A DNA stretch of 47,313 bases from Spirochaetes bacterium RBG_16_49_21. Lineage in GTDB: Bacteria; Spirochaetota; UBA4802; UBA5550. The stretch covers positions 1-47,313 of the forward strand of contig MIBJ01000036.1 of assembly GCA_001829495.1 (NCBI GenBank), read 5' to 3'. The notes under the pieces were generated by a model. The model ran no database searches, was not told where the DNA came from, and saw nothing but the letters and a program-made list of their open reading frames with translations. This document shows, piece by piece, positions 15,696 through 26,879 of this stretch. Within the stretch, counting starts at the first letter, position 1. Each line of letters starts with the position of its first letter. The position numbers were made by a program, and so were the translations under genes.

Positions 15696-16354
15696 TGTTC
15701 ACGGGCCTTATCGAAGAAATCGGCGAGATCGCGGAGGTTAAAAGCTCCGGAGGCGGCATTACGTTCACGATCATTGCTGATGCAGCGCTTGAGGGAACGA
15801 GGATCGGCGATTCAATTTCAATCAATGGCGCCTGCCTGACCGTGACGTCTCTTTCCGACGGCTCGTTTACCGTGTTCGCATCATCCGTGACCGCATCGGC
15901 CACGGCGCTCGGCTCATATGCAAAGGGAAAAAGGGTCAACCTCGAGCGGGCGATGACCCCTGCTGCCCGGTTCGGCGGCCATTTCGTCCAGGGGCATGTG
16001 GACGGGACCGGCAAGGTGGAAAGGGTGAAGCGGGATTCGATGGGCGCGGGCGTCGGCATAGCGGTAGGGCATGAGCTAAAGAAATACATTGCCGGCAAGG
16101 GCTCCGTGGCCGTGGACGGAATATCCCTCACCGTCGTATCCGTGACGCCCTCGGGCTTTTTCCTGTACGTGATTCCCGAGACGCTTGTCAGCACCGTAGC
16201 GGCGGATTGGAAACCCGGTGATGCCGTGAACGTCGAAGTCGACATCATTGCCAAGTATGTGGAGCGGATGCTCTCTTTCATGAAAGGCGGCGGGGATATC
16301 CGATCCGACGACGGGAGGCTCATGAAAAAGCTGGCGGACGAGGGATTTGTTTAG
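15695..16354 (+). CDS. ribE: riboflavin synthase alpha subunit
   Basis: Last enzyme of riboflavin synthesis, a dismutation of two 6,7-dimethyl-8-ribityllumazine molecules. The 219 residues show the two internal lumazine-binding repeats. The first starts MFTGLIEEIGEI and has INGACLTV. The second has RFGGHFVQGHVDGTGKV and VDGISLTV. Length and motifs are standard. It is translationally coupled to ribD. No ribBA or ribH gene lies in the window, so the rest of the pathway must be elsewhere. The stop codon overlaps that of the convergent STAS gene (TTAG shared by the two strands). Confidence 0.96.
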   Translation: MFTGLIEEIGEIAEVKSSGGGITFTIIADAALEGTRIGDSISINGACLTVTSLSDGSFTVFASSVTASATALGSYAKGKRVNLERAMTPAARFGGHFVQGHVDGTGKVERVKRDSMGAGVGIAVGHELKKYIAGKGSVAVDGISLTVVSVTPSGFFLYVIPETLVSTVAADWKPGDAVNVEVDIIAKYVERMLSFMKGGGDIRSDDGRLMKKLADEGFV

Positions 16355-16698
16355 AGGGGGATTCCGGGATAAATCGTTTTAAGCTTGGACGATGTCGAGA
16401 TAATAAAAAATTTGTCCAGGTAGGCGACCTTGAAGAGGTTGATGATATCCTTGTTCAGATTATATAAAATGACATTGATATTGAGATTTTTCGCAGAGTT
16501 CATGAATAGTATCAGGACTCCCATGCCGGATGAATCGATGAACTCAACATGAGAGAAATCGACGAATACGGTTTTCATGCCCTCCCGTATGATCGGTACG
16601 GTTCCTTCTTTAAAAACCTCTATCTGCTCAATGGTGAACTTCCCCTTCAGATGGATAACCGCGCAATCATCGGTTGGCGTTGTGGTCGTCATCTCCAT
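16351..16698 (-). CDS. STAS-domain anti-sigma factor antagonist
   Basis: A 115-residue single STAS domain of the SpoIIAA/RsbV type. These proteins bind an anti-sigma kinase and are switched by phosphorylation of a serine. The key loop reads EFIDSSGMGVL, with Asp55 and Ser56-Ser57; Ser56 matches the serine phosphorylated in SpoIIAA. The C-terminal helix region (NKDIINLFKVAYLDKFF) is also typical. No kinase gene is adjacent. A second STAS protein (36006-36329) and a SpoIIE phosphatase (34358) occur in the window and may belong to the same switch. The gene is convergent with ribE, with overlapping stop codons. Confidence 0.9.
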   Translation of the reverse strand: MEMTTTTPTDDCAVIHLKGKFTIEQIEVFKEGTVPIIREGMKTVFVDFSHVEFIDSSGMGVLILFMNSAKNLNINVILYNLNKDIINLFKVAYLDKFFIISTSSKLKTIYPGIPL

Positions 16699-16841: not shown

Positions 16842-17918
16842 TCACAAATCAAATATTTTTTGCAGATTGATCCGCCGGGGATCTACCGGCAGGGTTATCG
16901 GCTTTTTGTTGCGGTGAGCCGAAAGATAGATCGCATGGATCACCTCAAGCGCCTGGTACCCGTCGCTCCCGCTCGATGCGATCGGCCCTTTCCCGTTGAG
17001 TGCCCGTTTCGCCTCGAGATAGAGATCGCAGAAGCAGTTCTTTTTTTTATACGAAGGGAATGGTACCTCCGCGATGTCGCGGAAGCCGGAATAGAAGCGC
17101 GAGGGCCTGCTCCGGTGCAGCTTCTCATAACCGTTGCCGATGACGATTTTCCCCTCAGTGCCGGATATCTCAAGCTCGAATACGAAATAATTTCTGCTTC
17201 CGCCGGCTTCAAGGAAGACCTCGACTCCGTGCTCGGTCGTGAGCCATGCCAGCGCCCGGTCCTCATATCCGCTCCTCCTGCCGGTCCGCTGGAAAAGGCC
17301 TTCGACCGCAATGATCTCGCCGAAGAGATAGCGGAGCATATCCACGAGGTGCGTACCGTCATGGAGGAGGGGGCCGCCGCCCTCCTCGTGTAAGGGGCGG
17401 CCGCCTCCCGAGGTAAGAATCGACGCGTGAACGGTTTTTATCTCCCCGATTTTTCCCCGGCCGATGAGCTCCTTTACTTTCCGATAGCGGCTGTCATAGC
17501 GCCTTTCATGGTTGATGATTATCGCCGTTCCCTGATCCGAGCATTCCGTGATGATCCGGCGGCATCTGCTCAGGCTCGATGCCATCGGTTTCTCAAGAAC
17601 GATCATGCGCGCACCATTACGCGCGGCCTCGACCGCTATCGCATCGTGGCTCCCCGTCCAGGTGGCGATGATAACCAGCTCGGGACGAACCCTCCGTAAA
17701 AGATCGCGGTAATCGCGGAACCGGTTCTCGGGCGGGATGCCGGCCTTTTCCGCAAACAGTTCCCGGCGTTCCGCATTGATGTCGCAGCAGTGGCTCACGA
17801 AAAGTCCGGCGGCACGCGCGCCGCCATAATGGGTGCACGGCTTGTACCTGAGCGGGTCCTGTTCGAGGAGAAAACCTATCCTGCCGCAGCCGATCAAGGC
17901 TGTTTTTAATTCGGTCAT
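16842..17918 (-). CDS. Gfo/Idh/MocA-family NAD(P)-dependent oxidoreductase
   Basis: A 358-residue cytosolic dehydrogenase. The N-terminal Rossmann fold starts ALIGCGRIG (7-15). The family's EKP motif is at 109-111 with the catalytic Lys110. The second motif, GGGPLLHDGTHLVDMLRYLFG, gives His186, Asp187 and His190. These enzymes oxidise or reduce sugars, inositols, amino sugars or related hydroxyl compounds; the substrate is not readable here. The ATG overlaps the stop of the glutamine-synthetase-like gene (ATGA), so the two are probably translated together and may act on linked steps of one pathway. It is the last gene of a three-gene minus-strand operon. Confidence 0.9.
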   Translation of the reverse strand: MTELKTALIGCGRIGFLLEQDPLRYKPCTHYGGARAAGLFVSHCCDINAERRELFAEKAGIPPENRFRDYRDLLRRVRPELVIIATWTGSHDAIAVEAARNGARMIVLEKPMASSLSRCRRIITECSDQGTAIIINHERRYDSRYRKVKELIGRGKIGEIKTVHASILTSGGGRPLHEEGGGPLLHDGTHLVDMLRYLFGEIIAVEGLFQRTGRRSGYEDRALAWLTTEHGVEVFLEAGGSRNYFVFELEISGTEGKIVIGNGYEKLHRSRPSRFYSGFRDIAEVPFPSYKKKNCFCDLYLEAKRALNGKGPIASSGSDGYQALEVIHAIYLSAHRNKKPITLPVDPRRINLQKIFDL

Positions 17919-19240
17919 AGGATGGGGAGATATTCCTTTATCTCATAATCGGTAATGTACCGGTTGCTCCGTTTGAGCTCAGAGCTTTTATTTTCGATGA
18001 ATTTATTGAAGAGCACCTCGCCGAGGGTCTCCTTCATGAGCGCGCTCTTCTCAAAATAGCGCAGGGCATCATGCAGGTGCGTGGGAAGTCGGGGGCAGTC
18101 AGATTCGAATTTTTGGCGCCTGTCGGGGTCTGAATCATCGACCGGCTCCGCCAGCCTATATTTTTCATCGATTCCTTTCATTCCCGCCGCGATGATTGCC
18201 GAAAACACGAGATAGGGATTGCAGGCAGGGTCGGGATTCTGAAGCTCGATCCTCATGGCATTCGGCTTATCCGGCCTGCACAGCGGCACCCGTACCAGAG
18301 CGTTCAGGCTGGAGCAGCTCCAGGTGGCGTGGGTCGGCGATTCGAAGTCTTCATGGAGCCGCTTGTACGAGTTGATCCACTGGTTCGTGAGTACGAAAAA
18401 CTCATTGCAGTGCGCGAGCAGGCCCGCGATGTAGCGTTCGGCCGTTTCGGACAGAAAGTATTTGTTGTTCCTGTCGTAGAACATGTTCCGATCGTCTTTG
18501 AACAACGATTGATGTATGTGGAGTCCGGAGCCGTTCTGTTCGGCGAGCGGCTTCGGCATAAAGGACGCATGGATATTGTTCATCAGGGCGATTTCTTTGG
18601 TGATGAGCTTAAAGGTCATAATGTTATCAGCGGTGGTGAAGGCGTCCTCGTGCCTCAGGTCGATCTCATGCTGGCTGTTGGATGCCTCATGATGGGATGA
18701 GATAACGTCGATACCCATTTTTTCAAGCGTAAGAACCGTCCAGCGACGGTAATCCGTTGCGGCATCGAGGGGGGTCAGATCGAAGTATCCCCCCTGGTCG
18801 AGGATTTCCGGCCGGATGGAATTCTTGAAGTAGAAAAATTCAATTTCAGGACCGGTATAAAAGGTGAAGCCCTTTGCCGCCGCTTTTTGGAGATTTTTTT
18901 TTAAAATCTGGCGCGAGTCGCATTCATAGGGAGTCATGTTCATTTGGTATATATCGCAGAACATGCGCGCTACCGAATCCTCTTTCGGCCGCCAGGGAAG
19001 TATTTTAAAGGTGGAGATATCCGGGAGCGCGATCATTTCCCGCTCATCGGTTCTTATGAAGCCCTGAAGGGTTGAGCCGTCGAACCGGACGCCTTCCACG
19101 ATGGCGTCTTCAAGCTCATCGATGGTGATGGCGAAGCTCTTGAGAAATCCCAGGACGTCGGTAAACCAGAGCCTGATGAACTTGACGTTGTTGTCATGGG
19201 CGAGTTTTAAAACATATTCCTTGTTTTGATCCGTGTCCAT
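17915..19240 (-). CDS. glutamine synthetase homologue with altered active site
   Basis: A 441-residue type I glutamine-synthetase-fold protein. Many catalytic elements are intact: FDGSTLQGF (53-61), GPEIEFF (130-136), HHEASNSQHEI (183-193), NGSGLHIHQS (236-245), NSYKR with Arg294 and the flap Glu300. However, the nucleotide/phosphate motif usually reading S-A/G-R-N-R-S is WSCSSLN (307-313). The arginines matching Salmonella Arg337 and Arg339 are Ser310 and Leu312, whereas Arg317 (Arg344) remains. The later E-x-R is ELQ, so Gln334 replaces Arg359, which contacts the glutamate substrate. It may therefore be a ligase for another substrate rather than true GlnA. It lies between an unknown tail-anchored protein and a Gfo/Idh oxidoreductase. 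The family is certain; the changed function is inference. Confidence 0.9.
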   Translation of the reverse strand: MDTDQNKEYVLKLAHDNNVKFIRLWFTDVLGFLKSFAITIDELEDAIVEGVRFDGSTLQGFIRTDEREMIALPDISTFKILPWRPKEDSVARMFCDIYQMNMTPYECDSRQILKKNLQKAAAKGFTFYTGPEIEFFYFKNSIRPEILDQGGYFDLTPLDAATDYRRWTVLTLEKMGIDVISSHHEASNSQHEIDLRHEDAFTTADNIMTFKLITKEIALMNNIHASFMPKPLAEQNGSGLHIHQSLFKDDRNMFYDRNNKYFLSETAERYIAGLLAHCNEFFVLTNQWINSYKRLHEDFESPTHATWSCSSLNALVRVPLCRPDKPNAMRIELQNPDPACNPYLVFSAIIAAGMKGIDEKYRLAEPVDDSDPDRRQKFESDCPRLPTHLHDALRYFEKSALMKETLGEVLFNKFIENKSSELKRSNRYITDYEIKEYLPIL

Positions 19241-19246
19241 ACAGTA

Positions 19247-20263
19247 TTACCAGCTTAGGATAATCAGAACGAGAAAGAGGACGAGGATAAGCAAAAAGAG
19301 GGAAAGCATGGTTATCGTACCCTTGGAGAATCCCGTTCCGCGGGCGTCTTTCGGTGCTATGGCCTTATTTTTGCGAGCGGCCTTTCCGTCGCGCGGAACC
19401 GTCATCGGGCCGTCGATTTCCGGATTGTATATTTTCAGCTTAACCTGTTTTTCGGTTTCAGTGAACTTTCCGTATATGCCGGGGGATACGAGCGTCAGGA
19501 TATCGACGGGATTATTTTTCCCCGACCCGGCCTTTATGTCGATAATCTGGGCTGCGGTGGGACGGACATCCTTCTCCTCGCGGAGATCTAAAAGATCTAT
19601 GACATAGTTCGCCCGGTCGGACAGGGGCTGTATATAGACCATGAGCTTGTCCCCGACCCGGAGTTCGTAAATCGGCTTCCCTTTTACCGGCGCGACGATC
19701 GGCTTCACCGGCAGGATAAGTGCGCCTTCCTCAAGGGAATAATCTTCATACGGGGAAGAAGGGGTTGCGTCCTCTTCGGAAGCGGCGGCCGGAGCCGAAA
19801 GCGCAGAAGCCTCCCGGTATTCCGACGGCGTGATCTCCTGTATTGCGGTCTCCACAATCAAATCCTTGTCGTGGACGATTCTGTTCACCAGATCGTACAG
19901 GGTCGATTCCAAGGCGTTATAATCGTAATCCGATACGTTAGTGTAGAGAAAGGTCAGGGAATGCATCTGCTCGGAAAATTTTTTGAACTGCTCCATGATT
20001 CCGGTTGTCATATTGGCGTTGAATGTTCCCTTCCATCTTGCGTTTGCTATAAACTCTTTGTATTGCAGCCAGTCTTCATGGGGCTCCAGGTCATAGAGGT
20101 CGGAGTAGGTTGACACGACGGCGTTATAGATATCAAAATTGGTTTTGTCTTTGAATGTGAGGATAAACTGGCCGTACAGATTCAGGGAGCCTGATTTGAA
20201 TCTTCCCTTCACGATCAATATGGAATCCCTGATTTCCTGTAACTCGGCTTTATCTGGAGTCAT
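19247..20263 (-). CDS. unknown tail-anchored protein
   Basis: A 338-residue protein of no recognised family. Residues about 1-150 look like a soluble alpha/beta region without cysteines. An Ala/Ser/Glu/Pro-rich linker follows (about 152-178), then a second beta-rich domain (about 183-285: LPVKPIVAPVKGKPIYELRV and later). A basic stretch leads to a single C-terminal membrane helix (about 316-336) that nearly ends the protein. With no signal peptide, most of it should be cytoplasmic and anchored by its tail. It is the first gene of the operon with the glutamine-synthetase homologue, 6 nt downstream. A good promoter lies at 20280-20308, which would leave a leader of only about 10 nt. Confidence 0.7.
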   Translation of the reverse strand: MTPDKAELQEIRDSILIVKGRFKSGSLNLYGQFILTFKDKTNFDIYNAVVSTYSDLYDLEPHEDWLQYKEFIANARWKGTFNANMTTGIMEQFKKFSEQMHSLTFLYTNVSDYDYNALESTLYDLVNRIVHDKDLIVETAIQEITPSEYREASALSAPAAASEEDATPSSPYEDYSLEEGALILPVKPIVAPVKGKPIYELRVGDKLMVYIQPLSDRANYVIDLLDLREEKDVRPTAAQIIDIKAGSGKNNPVDILTLVSPGIYGKFTETEKQVKLKIYNPEIDGPMTVPRDGKAARKNKAIAPKDARGTGFSKGTITMLSLFLLILVLFLVLIILSW

Positions 20264-20279: not shown

Positions 20280-20308
20280 ATTATAATAGACTTGACCCAA
20301 AACTTCAA
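20280..20308 (-). promoter_or_regulatory. sigma-70-like promoter of the minus-strand operon
   Basis: On the minus strand TTGAAG (20303-20308), a 17-nt spacer and a perfect TATAAT (20280-20285). Transcription would start near 20273, about 10 nt before the ATG at 20263. Confidence 0.6.
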
Positions 20309-20456
20309 TAATTCTATTATTTAATGAGTTGTTTAATCAGGGTAATAGTAGCCTTAAACCCGTACGTGTCAATATAAAAATATCGCGATTCACCTCCGCC
20401 CTTCCCGGTCGCTAAGTCGAGTAATAATTTATGGAATAATCATTAAAAATATTTGA

Positions 20457-20508: not shown

Positions 20509-20535
20509 CCGGAGCATGCTTCCGCATGCATCCGG
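20509..20535 (+). other. leader hairpin upstream of 20586
   Basis: CCGGA-GCATGC (20509-20519), loop TTCC, then GCATGC-A-TCCGG (20524-20535): 11 base pairs with one bulged A. It lies in the predicted 5' leader, has no T-run and ends about 50 nt before the start codon. It may stabilise the mRNA or regulate translation. Confidence 0.5.
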
Positions 20536-20585
20536 TTTATAACAATTCAGGGAATGAATATATCATGAGCGGGAGAACTGATGGG

Positions 20586-21866
20586 ATGAAAATAATTAGC
20601 TCAAAATCATGGCTCCTTGGTGTTGCGGCCCTTATGCTGCTTTCCTCTAAGGGAGCACTATCCTTCTCCGACCAGACCACGACCGAGAGGATATTGCGGG
20701 AGAATAAGCGCTTTATCGAATTCCTCAATGTCTGCATGACGAATTTTTCCGAAAATAAGAGGGATGACTTCAGAAAGGCCTATGAAAAGCATTTCAATGC
20801 TGATGTCGCGTATCTTCAGTCGGATTTTAAAAGGGCATATAAGCGGGTGTATTCTTCCCAAGGGGAGATGGAGAAGCTGTATCGGGATATTGTCAAGGAT
20901 TACTACCTGGAGGACTCCAAGACGATTCTTGACAAGATCGCCCCGGCGATCATACGCTCAAAAAACGCCCGGGCGCGTTTATATCTGACGCTGGGTTATC
21001 GAGACCGTACCGTGGGGTGGAACTACTATACGGTCGCGGAGGCCTCCAATCCGAAGCTCTATGCATACAAGTTGTTCAAGTATGGGGACGCCATAACCAT
21101 GCTGCGGCGCGCAAAGCGATTCGCCTTTCTGTCGCTCTTTGAGGGGCAGGGCATCGAAACAAAGAAAAAAATATACAACCAGCTCTGCAAGTCCGAGCGC
21201 AGCGCGGGCAATCCCTTTTTCAGCCGCTTTATAGACCTTAATGAAGACGAGTTCATAAAAGAGATGAATAAAAGTTACGATGAGAAGTCTGAAGAGACGG
21301 CAAAGGCTTCGGCCTCGGAAGCGGAACGGAAGGAAGCAAAGAAGGAAGGGGAGATCAATAAGGAAGGTGAGATAAATAAGGGGCAGGCGGAGACCGGCCC
21401 CGGCGGTACCTTCGAAAAGAAAGTGGAGCGGCGTGTGCGGTTCAGAAGCGAAGCGCGGGCGGCCCGCCACCTTATAAACGGCGAGTTTGACAGGGCGGAG
21501 GAGATTATGCGCCCGCATATTGATGATTTTAATTTTAAGCTCATCAACGCGACCTTTAACGTGCTCACCGTCCCCGAAGGGGGCACTGCCGCAGATGAGA
21601 AAATGGATTACGCAAAGCTCAAGGTTCATCTCATTGATAATTATTCGCGGTTTTCAAATAAGTCCCTGCTGGACAGCTTTGCCGGATCCGTTACGGTGGA
21701 AGAGCGCACGGCTGAGGCAAACAAGGAGAAACAGGGGCCGGAAGGAATATCCGGCGACAAGACACCGGAAGAGGCAAAAACAGAAATGCGCGGGAAGAAT
21801 GGGGAAAAAGCCCTTGAACAGGGGAATAAAGAAGAGAAGCGGGATGCCGCTAAGGAAAAAAAATAG
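20586..21866 (+). CDS. exported helical protein with acidic/basic C-terminus, unknown
   Basis: A protein of about 426 residues. The start at ATG 20586 is preferred because it opens directly with a signal peptide (MKIISSK, then a hydrophobic run to ALSFS); a GGGAG site lies 10 nt upstream. In-frame ATGs at 20526 and 20565 would add a polar leader. The mature part (about 25-240) looks all-helical and is rich in Lys, Arg and aromatic residues. It is followed by a Glu/Lys-rich low-complexity stretch (about 243-280). A second compact segment (about 285-370) and a charged tail follow. No domain is recognised. It is followed by a 31-codon membrane peptide and the cyclase gene on the same strand, so a shared envelope-signalling role is possible. 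Confidence 0.7.
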   Translation: MKIISSKSWLLGVAALMLLSSKGALSFSDQTTTERILRENKRFIEFLNVCMTNFSENKRDDFRKAYEKHFNADVAYLQSDFKRAYKRVYSSQGEMEKLYRDIVKDYYLEDSKTILDKIAPAIIRSKNARARLYLTLGYRDRTVGWNYYTVAEASNPKLYAYKLFKYGDAITMLRRAKRFAFLSLFEGQGIETKKKIYNQLCKSERSAGNPFFSRFIDLNEDEFIKEMNKSYDEKSEETAKASASEAERKEAKKEGEINKEGEINKGQAETGPGGTFEKKVERRVRFRSEARAARHLINGEFDRAEEIMRPHIDDFNFKLINATFNVLTVPEGGTAADEKMDYAKLKVHLIDNYSRFSNKSLLDSFAGSVTVEERTAEANKEKQGPEGISGDKTPEEAKTEMRGKNGEKALEQGNKEEKRDAAKEKK

Positions 21867-21912: not shown

Positions 21913-22008
21913 ATGGGTAAAAGAATTCTGTTGATACTGATCATGGCTTTTTCCGCCGTTTTTGCGCTTTTTATTTTTTTGGATATACTGTACTGGTTGT
22001 TTTATTGA
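21913..22008 (+). CDS. 31-residue membrane peptide
   Basis: ATG 21913 is preceded by GGTGA 6 nt upstream and opens a frame encoding MGKRILLILIMAFSAVFALF plus 11 residues. Positive charges precede one hydrophobic helix, which fills nearly the whole peptide. It sits between the exported helical protein and the cyclase, 31 nt before the cyclase start. Such tiny membrane proteins often regulate neighbouring membrane enzymes, but that is speculation here. It could also be a chance frame or a leader peptide. Confidence is moderate because of the ribosome-binding site and positive-inside design. Confidence 0.45.
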   Translation: MGKRILLILIMAFSAVFALFIFLDILYWLFY

Positions 22009-22039
22009 TCGGCTCGCACCGGTCTGTTGCGGAGGTTCT

Positions 22040-23899
22040 ATGAATGTAAAAAGATTTTTCTCGAAATTAAAAATCCGCGCCAAGCTCATATCAATCATCT
22101 CCCTGATAATCATCACGTCACTGACGGGGATGATTTTTTTTGCTTCATATTTTTTCAAGGACGACACTAAAATCCGCGCGGTTGAGTTGAACCATAAGGT
22201 CGCCGAAGTGACGTCTTTAATAATGTTGACGGATTTCACCTCCCTGGTCGAAAAACTCAATCTCATGGGGAATACAATGATACAGCAGTTTCCCCAAAAG
22301 GTATTATTCACCGATCTCTTCTTCACTAATGACAAGAATCTATTATATGTAGGCATTGCCGCCAGAAAAGGTGATCGGCTGCTGTTTGAAAACGCAATAT
22401 TCAACAAGTCATATTTTTCCGAAAACAAACTTACGCTCGCGAATATGAATACGATCAACGCATTGTATACCGAATCATTTTTCGCGGCATTTAACAACGA
22501 GGCCACCGTGCAGAATGTTTCAAAAAGCTTTAACGTACCGGTCATTGCCGTAGCCCTGCCGTTCCAGAAAAATCCGAATCAAAGCGTCCTGTCGATCATC
22601 ATCGGGTATGTCAAGCTCGACAAATTCCTCCGGGCGTTCCCGGCGCGCGATATTTTCGAGACATTTATGGTGAACAGAAAGGGCGATGTCATGGCTCATT
22701 CGGAGGGTAAGGTCATCTTATCTCATGGAAATTTTTTGAACCTCCCCATCGTAGTGGAAATGCTTAAAAGCAGGCTGGATAACGGCCAGAAGCGGTATCG
22801 GGATGCCGACGGGTCCTATCGCCTCGGCTCCTTTAAAAAAATCGGGTTCAGCGGCCTCGGCGTTATCGCCACCGTGAGCGAGGAAAAAGCGTTCGCCGCG
22901 GTATATAAGATACAGCGTCAAAATATTCTCATTATGATTATTGTTCTCACCCTCGCCATAGTGATTGTTTATTTTTTCAGCAAGACCATCACGACGCCCA
23001 TCATCAGGCTTTTCAGAGCCACCCGGGAGATCGAGGAGGGCAGGTTCAGGGTTGATATAACGCCCGCTTCAGAGGACGAGATAGGCGAGCTCACCCGGTC
23101 ATTCGTGGCGATGGGTCTCGGCCTGGAAGAGCGGGAAAAGATGAAGGAGGCGTTCGGAAAATTCGTAAACAAGGAAATTGCCGAACAGGTGCTCAAGGGT
23201 GGAGTAAAACTCGGGGGTGAGCGAAAAACAGCGACGATTTTTTTCTCGGACATTCGCTCCTTTACCGCTATCTCGGAAAAGCTTGAGCCGGAAGAGGTGG
23301 TGGAATTCCTTAACCAATACATGACCAGGATGGTAAATTGCGTTAATATGACACGGGGGGTGGTGGATAAGTTTATCGGAGATGCGATCATGGCGGTATG
23401 GGGCGCGCCGGTCTCCTACGGCAACGACACCGAGAACGCGGTCAACGGCGCTCTCATGATGCGGAATGAGCTCATGGGATTCAACAAGGGGCGGGGCGGG
23501 GTTAAGAAGCCGATTATCAGGATCGGGTGCGGCATCAACACCGGCCCGGTGCTGGCGGGCCAGATCGGCTCCGAAGAGCGGATGGAGTACACGGTAATCG
23601 GCGACACGGTCAATCTTGCATCGAGGATCGAACAGCTCAACAAGCCGTTCGGCACGGACATTCTGATTTCAGAAGAGACCTGCCACCTGATAAAGGGAAT
23701 CTACCGTGTGGAGCCGATGCGGAAGATCAAGGTCAAGGGGAAGGCCGAGGCGCAGCAGATATACGCCGTTCTCGGCAGGAATGACGATCCGGATTCCCCC
23801 AAAAATTTAAGCGAGCTAAGGGGCCTGCTGGGAATCGATGCGAACGTGAACATCGAGAACCCTGTCGAGGAAGAAGTGAAATATGAAATTCTTGAATAA
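22040..23899 (+). CDS. membrane class III adenylate/guanylate cyclase with HAMP
   Basis: A 619-residue inner-membrane receptor cyclase that makes a cyclic nucleotide, probably cAMP. ATG 22040 is preceded by GGAGG (22031-22035). Membrane helices lie at about 17-39 and 294-313, enclosing a periplasmic Cache/CHASE-like sensor (about 40-292). A HAMP domain follows (about 314-366). The catalytic domain (about 396-575) has both metal aspartates, Asp404 in FFSDIRSFTA and Asp448 in FIGDAIMAVWGAP. The transition-state residues Asn525 and Arg529 are in GDTVNLASR. The site therefore looks active. Substrate choice (ATP or GTP) cannot be fixed with certainty. The downstream FecR-domain gene overlaps its end by 17 nt, so sensor and cyclase are probably co-expressed. 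Confidence 0.92.
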   Translation: MNVKRFFSKLKIRAKLISIISLIIITSLTGMIFFASYFFKDDTKIRAVELNHKVAEVTSLIMLTDFTSLVEKLNLMGNTMIQQFPQKVLFTDLFFTNDKNLLYVGIAARKGDRLLFENAIFNKSYFSENKLTLANMNTINALYTESFFAAFNNEATVQNVSKSFNVPVIAVALPFQKNPNQSVLSIIIGYVKLDKFLRAFPARDIFETFMVNRKGDVMAHSEGKVILSHGNFLNLPIVVEMLKSRLDNGQKRYRDADGSYRLGSFKKIGFSGLGVIATVSEEKAFAAVYKIQRQNILIMIIVLTLAIVIVYFFSKTITTPIIRLFRATREIEEGRFRVDITPASEDEIGELTRSFVAMGLGLEEREKMKEAFGKFVNKEIAEQVLKGGVKLGGERKTATIFFSDIRSFTAISEKLEPEEVVEFLNQYMTRMVNCVNMTRGVVDKFIGDAIMAVWGAPVSYGNDTENAVNGALMMRNELMGFNKGRGGVKKPIIRIGCGINTGPVLAGQIGSEERMEYTVIGDTVNLASRIEQLNKPFGTDILISEETCHLIKGIYRVEPMRKIKVKGKAEAQQIYAVLGRNDDPDSPKNLSELRGLLGIDANVNIENPVEEEVKYEILE

Positions 23900-26879
23900 G
23901 ATCGACGACGATCATCTGGTTGTTGGTATAAGCCTGCTCGTTATTATGACCTGTTCGGTGCTCCTGTATGCCGAATTTACCAGAAAGGTTGAGGCGGGCG
24001 GGGCGAAGATGATCGGCACCGTCTCCTACAAGAGGGAGGTCGCCCAGCGGAAATACGCATCCCAGGTGATATGGGAGGATGTGGATCAGAACGCGCCGGT
24101 GTATGATAATGACTCGGTGAGGACCGCCGACCTCTCGGAAGCGGTCATAAAGCTCAAGGATGGAACGAGTATCAATCTTGATGAAAACAGCCTGATCCTC
24201 CTTTCTTTGACCGGAGAGGGGATCAACATAAACTTTTCGCACGGCTCGATGTCCGCCAGCCGCGAGGATGTGCAGGAAGGCGGGACGGCCAGAGTGGAGA
24301 TACAGTCCCGGGACGCGGTGGTATCCGTGGAAAAGGGGGAAGTAAAGCTTTCAAGAACCGGGGATAAGAAAATGGATGTCACGGTGACGGAGGGGAAGGC
24401 CGAGATAACAACCGCAGCGGGTGAAAAGACGATTGAGAAGGACGAGAAGGCGGTGATCACCGCAGATGAGGCTCCGAAGGTTTTGAAGCTGAAGCTAAAG
24501 CTCAAGGCGCCCCTGCCGAATGAAATTTTTATCGCTGCCGGCGGAGTCGTTTCGACCGATTTTTCATGGGAGCATGCAGCCGATGATGCGGAGGTTTACC
24601 TGGAGATAGCCGGGGACAGCAGGTTCACCAGGGGAATCGTTGTACGCCCGTCTACGAAAGATTCCATCAGTGAAAATCTTGGAGCGGGCAGCTATTTTTG
24701 GCGCATCAAAGCGGTCAATGCCTCGACGAAGAGAGTCGAATACAGCGATGCATGGAAGTTCAACATACTGCAAGACGAGCCGGTGCTGCTCATCGCTCCG
24801 CGGAACGGCGAAACCGTATCCTACAGCTCGAAGCCGCCCATAGTCAGTTTCCGCTGGCAGAAGAACCGGCTTGCGTCCGAATATGCAGTTGAGATAGCGA
24901 ACGACGCAGCGTTCACGGCGATCTTGTTTTCCGCGCCGACCCGGCTCGAGGACCTTTCCATCGATACGCTGGAAGCCGGCTCCTATTATTGGCGGGTCAG
25001 GACGAAGAACGCGATCGCCGCCTCATACACCGGCTCAAGCCCGATCTGGCGGCTCGCCGTTGAGAAGCGCATTCAGGTCAATCCGCCGGTTTTGCTCTCG
25101 CCGCCCGACGCCAGCACGGTGAGTCGGGCCATGTTTACTGCCGGTAAGGATTTCATTTTCAGCTGGAGTTTCGACAGCCAGGTCAAACAGTATGAGCTTG
25201 CGATATCCCGGGATAAGGATTTCAAGGACGTCGCGTTCAGAATCAGGAGCAGCGGGAATTTCCATGTTGTTCATGAACCGCTTCAACCCGGCACCTACTT
25301 CTGGCGGGTGGCAGCGGCAACCGGTTCCGGTATAGAGGCGGTTTCCTCCGCCAACGCGCTTGTCGTTGTGCCGGTTGAGGATATCAGGCTCAATGATCCG
25401 ATGGTGCTGAGCCGCTCCGGGCCCGGTACGGGTGACGGGTATGCGAAAATACTCTTTTCATGGTCAAAGAGCAGCTATCCGGCCGATTACCGGTTTGAGC
25501 TGGCGAAGGACAAGGGTTTTCTCGAAATCAAAGACCTGAGCACGATCGCGGATAACAGCAGGGCGGTGGACGGGGTCCGCGCCGGGGTCTATTTTTGGCG
25601 CGTGAAGCTCCTCGACCGGAGCGGCAACCAGCTGCTCGAAAGCAGGTCGCGGCCGCTGTATGTCAGCGCAAAGGGCGCCATCGTGGCGAGGCTTGAAGAT
25701 ATCCAGCCTCCGGAATCCCCTTCCATGGGGAAGGAGGAGGTGAAAGCCGCAAAGGAGGGTAAAGCTGCCGTCAAGCAGGAAGCTGAGGCGAAAAAGACGG
25801 AGGAAACAGCGAAAGAAAAAGAATCTGAAAAGAAGGGTGAAGCCCGGGCTGACAAAAAAGAGGACGCCCCGACCAGTGCGGTCATTACGAAGCCTGAGCA
25901 CGAAGAAAAATTCAGGGGAAGAAGAGTAGCGTGGAAAGTCAATCTGGCCTCCACGGTCATGTCGCAGCCCGTATCCTATAATAATATATTAATCACCACC
26001 ACCCGGAGCGGTTTTTTGGTCGGATTAAGCCGGCACGGGGCGCGGCTCTGGCGGGTCAACCTGGGAGGCGCGGCCCGGTCGACGCCGGCCGCCGCTCGCG
26101 GCGTTGCGTACGTCGCCACGGTCAAGGGGCTCCTCTACGCAGTCAGTACCGCCGATGGAGCGGTCAAATGGACCAAACCGGTCGAGGGCCCTCTTCTGTA
26201 CGGCTCCGCGCCGATAGTCGAAAACGACCGGGTGTATGTCGCCACGGGCTACGGAGTGGTGCAGGCCTTTTCTTCCGAGGGGAAAGAGATATGGAGACGG
26301 GATCTTGAGGAGGGAATATTCAGCCCCATGACCTATGCGAAAGGGCTCCTGTATGTGGGAACCGATCGGTCAAAGATATACGCCCTGGACGCGGATGACG
26401 GCGATATAGAGTGGGAATATCAGACCGACGGCAGGATTTTCTACTCCTCTCCCAAGGTGTACAAGGGGCTCCTTTTCGCGGGCTGCTACAGCGGCACTTT
26501 TTACGCCCTTCAGGCAGGCAGCGGAAAACTCAAGTGGAAGTTCGCGGCGAAAAGGGCGATACTCTCAACTCCGGCTTTTTTTAATGATGCGGTATATTTC
26601 GGATCAGAGGAGGGCATGGTTTACGCCCTGAGCATCGATGACGGAAAAAAGCTCTGGGAATTCAAAACGGGCGCCACTATTGTGGCCGGGCCCGATGTCT
26701 CGCGGAATAATGTTTTGATCCCGAGCGGAAACACCATATATTCGATAGACGGGGGATCCGGAAGGCTTAACTGGAAAGAGGGATTTGCCGCAAGCATCAA
26801 TACGCCGGTTACCATTGTGGGCGGTATGGCGTTCGTCGGACTCGACAACGGCGAGGTCGTTTCCCTGCGCTCATATTGA
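23883..26879 (+). CDS. FecR-domain / Ig-like / PQQ-propeller membrane protein
   Basis: A 998-residue bitopic protein. Residues 12-30 are a membrane helix with a short cytoplasmic start. A FecR domain follows (about 65-200: VYDNDSVRTADLSEAVIKL, INLDENSL and later). Then come at least four Ig-like/fibronectin-like repeats, each ending in a Y-F/Y-W-R-V/I strand near residues 269, 369, 473 and 570. Next is a Lys/Glu/Ala-rich linker (about 615-660). The C-terminal part (about 670-998) is a beta-propeller of PQQ/BamB-type blades with repeated YALD.DG..W motifs. FecR normally relays an outer-membrane signal to a membrane regulator. Here it is fused to binding modules and its gene overlaps the cyclase gene. 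Domain calls are good; the function is inferred. Confidence 0.85.
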   Translation: MKFLNKIDDDHLVVGISLLVIMTCSVLLYAEFTRKVEAGGAKMIGTVSYKREVAQRKYASQVIWEDVDQNAPVYDNDSVRTADLSEAVIKLKDGTSINLDENSLILLSLTGEGININFSHGSMSASREDVQEGGTARVEIQSRDAVVSVEKGEVKLSRTGDKKMDVTVTEGKAEITTAAGEKTIEKDEKAVITADEAPKVLKLKLKLKAPLPNEIFIAAGGVVSTDFSWEHAADDAEVYLEIAGDSRFTRGIVVRPSTKDSISENLGAGSYFWRIKAVNASTKRVEYSDAWKFNILQDEPVLLIAPRNGETVSYSSKPPIVSFRWQKNRLASEYAVEIANDAAFTAILFSAPTRLEDLSIDTLEAGSYYWRVRTKNAIAASYTGSSPIWRLAVEKRIQVNPPVLLSPPDASTVSRAMFTAGKDFIFSWSFDSQVKQYELAISRDKDFKDVAFRIRSSGNFHVVHEPLQPGTYFWRVAAATGSGIEAVSSANALVVVPVEDIRLNDPMVLSRSGPGTGDGYAKILFSWSKSSYPADYRFELAKDKGFLEIKDLSTIADNSRAVDGVRAGVYFWRVKLLDRSGNQLLESRSRPLYVSAKGAIVARLEDIQPPESPSMGKEEVKAAKEGKAAVKQEAEAKKTEETAKEKESEKKGEARADKKEDAPTSAVITKPEHEEKFRGRRVAWKVNLASTVMSQPVSYNNILITTTRSGFLVGLSRHGARLWRVNLGGAARSTPAAARGVAYVATVKGLLYAVSTADGAVKWTKPVEGPLLYGSAPIVENDRVYVATGYGVVQAFSSEGKEIWRRDLEEGIFSPMTYAKGLLYVGTDRSKIYALDADDGDIEWEYQTDGRIFYSSPKVYKGLLFAGCYSGTFYALQAGSGKLKWKFAAKRAILSTPAFFNDAVYFGSEEGMVYALSIDDGKKLWEFKTGATIVAGPDVSRNNVLIPSGNTIYSIDGGSGRLNWKEGFAASINTPVTIVGGMAFVGLDNGEVVSLRSY

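Follow-up and report, generated by a model that had tools for sequence, protein, structure and literature searches.

The window analyzed here, a stretch of 47,313 nucleotides on contig 36 (MIBJ01000036.1) of the genome of Spirochaetes bacterium RBG_16_49_21 (83 contigs, 94.7% complete), contains a gene for a glutamine synthetase (GS) homologue that lacks two active-site arginines, the equivalents of Arg339 and Arg359 in Salmonella GS. The gene sits between genes for a tail-anchored protein (TA) and a Gfo/Idh/MocA oxidoreductase, and it had been singled out by an earlier model-made reading of the sequence alone (the original prediction). The gene and its relevant parts are as follows:

17915..19240, minus strand: GS-like protein of 441 aa without Arg339 and Arg359 equivalents, identified from an open reading frame (ORF) with ATG start, Pfam domains Gln-synt_C and Gln-synt_N, active-site residues and an AlphaFold2 model
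18302..18316, minus strand: codons of CSSLN, residues 309-313, the loop that bears Arg339 in other GS (coordinates computed from the ORF)
18239..18247, minus strand: codons of ELQ, residues 332-334, in which Gln334 replaces Arg359 (coordinates computed from the ORF)
19037..19087, minus strand: codons of the Asp50' loop, residues 52-68, with R52, T57 and E68 fixed in the protein's clade (from the alignment, with coordinates computed from the ORF)

The protein belongs to the type I GS (GSI) fold, exceeding the Pfam cut-offs of PF00120 (363.8 bits) and PF03951 (88.8 bits), and scores below the GlnA cut-off of NCBIfam TIGR00653 (416.8 vs 429.15 bits). Its nearest solved structures are those of M. 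mazei GlnA1 (8s59 and 8tfb), and the AlphaFold2 model is confident (pLDDT 90.9, pTM 0.92, 10-residue block means of 90-94 across residues 301-340), with 8s59 as its best PDB match (Foldseek, TM 0.94). Alignment puts Leu312 at the Arg339 position and Gln334 at the Arg359 position. Against M. mazei GlnA1 the HMMER alignment has a gap at neither motif, the sole nearby indel being a 3-residue insertion between them; together with the confident model, this rules out an alignment shift that would restore the arginines. Equivalents of Arg321 (R294), Arg344 (R317), Arg355 (R330) and Glu327 (E300) are kept, as are those of Glu129, Glu131, Glu212, Glu220, Glu357 and His269. Both motifs with their two replacements, and the persistence of the first four of these residues, are exactly as the original prediction had read them. 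The Salmonella numbers were assigned by motif spacing and are consistent with the residue equivalences given in PMC10799026 and PMC11957540. In terms of family, the window protein has the six metal ligands and the glutamate clamp (E131, N264, G265 and R321) of type I GS, and differs from it at R339 and R359 as well as at the ribose-binding Glu207 (I180) and the adenine-stacking aromatic (H197). Nor does it fit the known polyamine-ligase types, a family assignment ruled out by its score against the gamma-glutamylputrescine synthetase model (NF045547, 259 vs a cut-off of 650 bits) and by its ammonium pocket: gamma-glutamylpolyamine synthetases alter Asp50, Tyr179, Asn264 or Glu327, all of which are kept here (D54, Y152, N236 and E300), and S53 alone is changed, to Thr.

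Proteins of this type form a single lineage. Our search covered the window genome together with 45 relatives of the same order (46 genomes) and 13 genomes from farther afield in the phylum. The window-type GS (clade A) is present in 39/46 genomes of this one Spirochaetota order, a canonical relative takes its place in three (G024, G028 and G033), and neither was found in the other four (G017, G022, G038 and G043). Among 392 genomes drawn from the phylum, 49 matches at E <= 1e-130 comprise the 39, the three canonical relatives and seven others, which are 51-53% identical and all carry Arg at both positions. A search of public contigs confirmed 582 relatives; among the best 80 of these 582, seven belong to clade A, from metagenome-assembled genomes titled Spirochaetes, Spirochaetae, Spirochaetia or Spirochaetota, and the remaining 73 carry Arg at the 339 position. 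Our tree has 84 rows: 37 of clade A, 29 of its nearest relatives (group B), 17 of the 49 outer GSI (group C), and the other GS of the window genome. A branch with an SH-aLRT of 100 separates clade A from all other rows; R339 was therefore probably lost once, at the base of the clade, as far as the sample shows, and the loss is judged against the sequences compared here rather than the whole GS superfamily. Group B is not a clade in this tree, and three actinobacterial rows of group C adjoin clade A (SH-aLRT 94). The ratio of nonsynonymous to synonymous substitution rates (dN/dS) is 0.04-0.10 in 12/15 same-genus pairs among six congeners, synonymous divergence being saturated in the other three and near saturation in several more. 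The gene is thus under purifying selection within the genus and is not a decaying pseudogene, which bears out the earlier view of a selective change.

Counts across clade A cover 39 proteins (37 nonredundant rows plus those of G037 and G029). R339 is absent from all 39, replaced by Gln (9), Asp (9), Pro (8), His (6), Asn (4), Tyr (2) and Leu (1); the Leu is found only in the window, and its five congeners have His. The loop 309-313 falls in the 84th-95th percentile of variability within the clade. With seven different residues in a variable loop, no single new catalytic residue took over there: the site was freed rather than exchanged. The R359 position is Arg in 31/39, Gln in 6/39 and Lys in 2/39, with Gln limited to the window's genus (6/6, window included). 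Outside the clade, Arg occupies both positions in 29/29 group B and 49/49 group C proteins, in six further Spirochaetota relatives and in eight more distant GS rows outside the two groups, one of which (L147) has ambiguous bases nearby. Further changes are fixed across clade A. The ribose-binding Glu207 (MtGS Glu189; PMC10799026) is gone in 39/39 (Ile 33, Lys 5, Leu 1), and the adenine-stacking Tyr/Phe at 225 (MtGS Phe206, M. mazei F204) is His in 39/39. The Asp50' loop has R52, T57 and E68 in 39/39, at sites where group B has Gly, Ser (27/29, otherwise Ala) and Asp, respectively. Conversely, the six metal ligands, E131, N264, G265, R321, D50', Y179, H271, S273, R344 and R355 are invariant in 39/39, and E327 is kept in 37/39 (Asn once, Asp once). 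S53' is Thr throughout. The arginine of glutamine feedback (B. subtilis R62; R63 here) is present in 37/39. Groups B and C share 137 conserved positions, of which 12 are switched in clade A, including 3/6 ATP contacts vs 0/12 metal, glutamate or ammonium positions (Fisher's exact test P = 0.009, descriptive since the classes were set after looking); S53' and N264 lie outside this pool, as both vary in group C.

Three further switched positions, 382, 409 and 422, conserved as Ile, His and Trp in groups B and C, are close to helices at the C terminus that join the two rings in other GSI, so the clade A oligomer may differ.

By the pattern of replacements, the change lies on the ATP and phosphoryl-transfer side of the active site; the residues that clamp glutamate, those of both metal sites and most of those for ammonium are intact. 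The clearest losses are R339, the ribose Glu207 and the adenine-stacking Phe/Tyr225, and the Asp50' loop, a contact of R339, has acquired new residues. The catalytic arginine (BsGS R316, MtGS R321) binds the triphosphate of ATP, and the Asp50' loop holds or releases its loop (PMC10799026). On activation of M. mazei GlnA1, R66 (R63 here) exits the pocket and R319 (L312 here) enters it (PMC11957540), and these arginines, R62 and R316 in B. subtilis, swap places between locked and active states (PMC11957540 and PMC10799026); R66A keeps its activity and shows no significant inhibition by glutamine (PMC11957540). In E. coli, the R339C and R359C replacements increase the Km for ATP and Glu by 40-100-fold, with a comparable drop in kcat (Dhalla et al. 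1994, cited in PMC12018205). Human R340, which we take to match R359, touches gamma-glutamyl phosphate and the gamma-phosphate of ATP, and not glutamate, in simulations (PMC4737493), so the second loss also belongs to phosphoryl transfer. Two parts of the original prediction fare less well here. It had taken Arg359 for a glutamate contact, which is at odds with these simulations, and had proposed a ligase that activates something other than ordinary glutamate; that substrate is not supported, given the kept glutamate residues (E131, N264, G265 and R321), the kept ammonium residues (D50', Y179, and E327 in 37/39) and Arg359 itself in 31/39. A different donor or acceptor is possible for the clade A protein.

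The gene is the middle member of a row of three, flanked by the first two features below:

19247..20263, minus strand: TA, 338 aa, whose gene ends 6 nt before the GS gene; the protein bears a single transmembrane helix at its C terminus and weakly resembles DUF4899
16842..17918, minus strand: Gfo/Idh/MocA oxidoreductase, 358 aa, its start codon overlapping the GS stop by 4 nt
20280..20372, minus strand: two promoter-like sites upstream of the TA gene, 10/12 matches each (consensus matches only)

Neither partner is a known nitrogen-assimilation gene, in keeping with the original prediction. The oxidoreductase exceeds the Pfam cut-offs of PF01408 (58.4 bits, Rossmann) and PF02894 (67.7 bits, C-terminal) and reaches no NCBIfam equivalog cut-off. 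The window TA scores below the DUF4899 gathering score (19.1 vs 25 bits), with 25/29 TA members matching this model at E <= 1 (best 5.7e-07). A fold search with the TA model gave no structural match (best E 0.14), no PDB sequence matched the TA profile at E <= 1, and no paper in the literature collection searched mentions DUF4899. Gene order is conserved: the TA gene lies upstream of GS in 29/29 clade loci examined for it, including two in which the ORF caller places a small opposite ORF between them, and the TA gene of G037 looks broken. The oxidoreductase follows GS in 25/29 loci, lies beyond the contig end in one (L152) and was not found downstream in three (L128, L131 and L133). The canonical relatives of G024, G028 and G033 lie elsewhere, without TA or Gfo neighbors.

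Beyond these partners, a gene with a STAS domain (anti-sigma-factor antagonist-like; 16351-16698, same strand) follows the oxidoreductase gene and recurs there in many relatives' loci. In congeners and two other genera (L113-L117, L120 and L033), a conserved gene of about 300 aa (301 aa) lies between the two; it had no match in the window or its genome, in a search run without a positive control. Divergent to the operon is a 446-aa protein without Pfam match (20526-21866), kept there in 25 compared loci, and 21962-26879 holds an adenylate/guanylate cyclase with HAMP (plus a weak dCache) and then a protein with FecR and a PQQ-type beta-propeller.

Nearly all clade A genomes also encode another GS. 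The window genome (G000) has one, a canonical GS that is encoded on contig 28 and keeps both arginines, and the family model found no type III GS there. Another GS is present in 38/39 clade genomes, type III in 36 (by the family model) and another type I in G000 and G011; none was found in G035, a genome 76% complete. Residues of these extra genes were read in the window genome and a few others. The central domain of glutamate synthase (GOGAT) was not found in the window genome, where two PII genes are present, and was found in 13/14 control genomes. Neither observation decides between the readings that follow.

We tentatively favor, at a probability of about 0.4, a catalytically weakened GS that has been reused as a glutamate- or glutamine-responsive partner of a membrane protein. 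A duplicated GSI-type GS would have given up its machinery for fast phosphoryl transfer in a single event, at the root of the clade in this Spirochaetota order, and the protein would have been retained mainly for binding rather than to make glutamine, with low turnover. Residues for glutamate or glutamine, the metals and the triphosphate are still in place. R63 of the Asp50' loop locks the pocket on glutamine in ordinary GSI-alpha; since it is kept and R339, its active-state replacement, is gone, the protein may be in a ligand-locked shape at rest or switch to one readily. That shape could be read by TA, the operon partner and putatively a physical one, in a signaling role, with the oxidoreductase as a functionally linked enzyme. 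This reading draws on the absence of R339 from 39/39 with seven replacements in a variable loop, the loss of Glu207 and the His at the stacking site in 39/39, the switching of 3/6 ATP contacts vs 0/12 other active-site positions, and R63 in 37/39, all of which are consistent with it. It is further supported by the impaired E. coli R339C and R359C, TA upstream in 29/29 loci and another GS in 38/39 genomes. The heliorhodopsin-GS operon of an actinobacterium offers a precedent for a membrane-bound regulatory partner (PMC9529153). A more specific version, somewhat less probable, is a membrane-docked glutamine/glutamate switch working with TA and the oxidoreductase; alternatively, the protein may be a GS-fold enzyme with a phosphoryl source other than ATP.

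Several observations weigh against a weakened, ligand-responsive GS. R344, R355, H271, S273, all metal ligands, D50' and Y179 are invariant in 39/39, which a pure binding protein would not need, and Arg359 is kept in 31/39. In Fusarium, the mutant with GS R311A, a residue that we match to R339 by its spacing, can like the wild type do without glutamine for growth, and an E330/R332 mutant cannot (PMC3829961), so loss of R339 alone need not be crippling; the invariant new Arg52 could moreover substitute for it. The TA and Gfo genes adjoin without GS in G017, G022 and G028 (L176, L175 and L168), so GS is a dispensable middle member of the TA-GS-Gfo row and the partnership is not obligatory. TA has relatives across much of the phylum, its profile finding some match in 57/59 genomes, many weak or to paralogues, including genomes without clade A GS, which together with those three loci rules out an obligatory TA-GS pair. 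Between the TA and Gfo genes of G022, a stretch resembling the C-terminal part of GS was not significant (E 0.065).

Part of this evidence is what would be expected of an active GS-fold ligase with a remodeled donor or acceptor, one that transfers a phosphoryl group to glutamate or a close analogue and goes on to make an amide, using another nucleotide or phosphoryl donor, or another amine. We regard this as possible and nearly as likely as the weakened GS. The metal ligands and most residues of the ammonium site are invariant, as are the triphosphate contacts, which argue that a nucleotide is still bound; R52, T57, E68 and H197, fixed in 39/39, look like remodeling rather than loss, and the low dN/dS (0.04-0.10) and the functional Fusarium R311A (PMC3829961) fit as well. 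Arg52 of the neighboring subunit's Asp50' loop, two residues before D50', could replace Arg339, a substitution suggested by sequence rather than by a spatial placement of R52. Judged by residues, the actinobacterial relatives near clade A resemble the group with Streptomyces GlnA2, which glutamylates polyamines (PMC8998196), but the GlnA2-type changes at S53 and N264 differ from those of clade A, where S53 is Thr and N264 is kept. Residue 339 varies freely, Pro and Asp included, both phosphoryl-transfer arginines are gone in the window's genus, and no polyamine or amine genes were recognized by Pfam among the immediate partners. An ordinary second GS whose catalysis tolerates the changes seems unlikely. 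Its full GS fold, intact metal, glutamate and ammonium residues, near-threshold GlnA score (416.8 bits vs 429.15) and the Fusarium R311A result (PMC3829961) would suit it, as would the failure to find another GS in G035, though that genome is only 76% complete. However, at least four clade-wide changes fall at otherwise near-invariant ATP and Asp50'-loop positions, another GS is present in 38/39 genomes, the gene is absent from G017 and G022 while its neighbors remain, and the R339C and R359C changes severely impair the E. coli enzyme (PMC12018205). An origin in misalignment, a sequencing error or a pseudogene can be set aside almost entirely: Leu312 is unique to the window, with His in five congeners, but open frames without Arg339 in 39 genomes refute an artifact at the level of the clade, as do dN/dS of 0.04-0.10, the conserved gene order and a confident model without shift.

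Arg339 is known as the catalytic arginine of GSI, and it moves in both 2-oxoglutarate activation and glutamine feedback of GSI-alpha (PMC10799026 and PMC11957540). A clade without R339 whose glutamate and metal site is almost complete offers a natural experiment on how far ligand sensing by GS is separable from catalysis, and on whether an arginine of the neighboring subunit can take over. Strong GlnA-like matches in this order need their active site checked before they are counted as nitrogen-assimilation enzymes.

Among known systems, GSI-alpha (M. mazei GlnA1, B. subtilis GlnA) shares the whole fold with the window protein (44% identity to M. mazei GlnA1, TM 0.94), along with the metal, glutamate and most ammonium residues and the feedback arginine (R62/R66). 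The window protein differs from it in lacking Arg339 and, within its genus, Arg359, and in its altered ribose Glu, adenine-stacking aromatic and Asp50' loop. The nearest canonical proteins by identity (50-56%) are those of group B, from Desulfobacterota, Humimicrobium and other Spirochaetota. They share the 3-residue insertion between the motifs, but 29/29 keep Arg339, Arg359 and Glu207, with Tyr or Phe at the stacking site, and they have other gene neighbors. Lengsin (2j9i), a GS-fold protein described as noncatalytic, is very distant (E 2.5e-7) and not a close relative.

Actinobacterial GlnA2-like GS (PMC8998196) and the heliorhodopsin-associated AbGS (PMC9529153) form a group that adjoins clade A in the tree (three rows, SH-aLRT 94). 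The AbGS operon likewise includes genes for a membrane partner and a Gfo/Idh/MocA protein (PMC9529153). These proteins keep Arg339 and Arg359, however, and change S53 and N264, and their membrane partner is unrelated to TA. At two actinobacterial loci (L065:7350-8000 and L069:7376-8026), a gene with seven transmembrane helices neighbors that of GS, with NAD synthase and LeuA genes on either side, an arrangement described for the heliorhodopsin-GS operon (PMC9529153); a heliorhodopsin was expected there, but the gene is HlyIII-like in both loci tested. Gamma-glutamylpolyamine synthetases of the PuuA/GlnA3 type likewise use the GS fold for another product, but they do so with an altered ammonium pocket (Asp50, Glu327 and others), whereas that of clade A is nearly intact.

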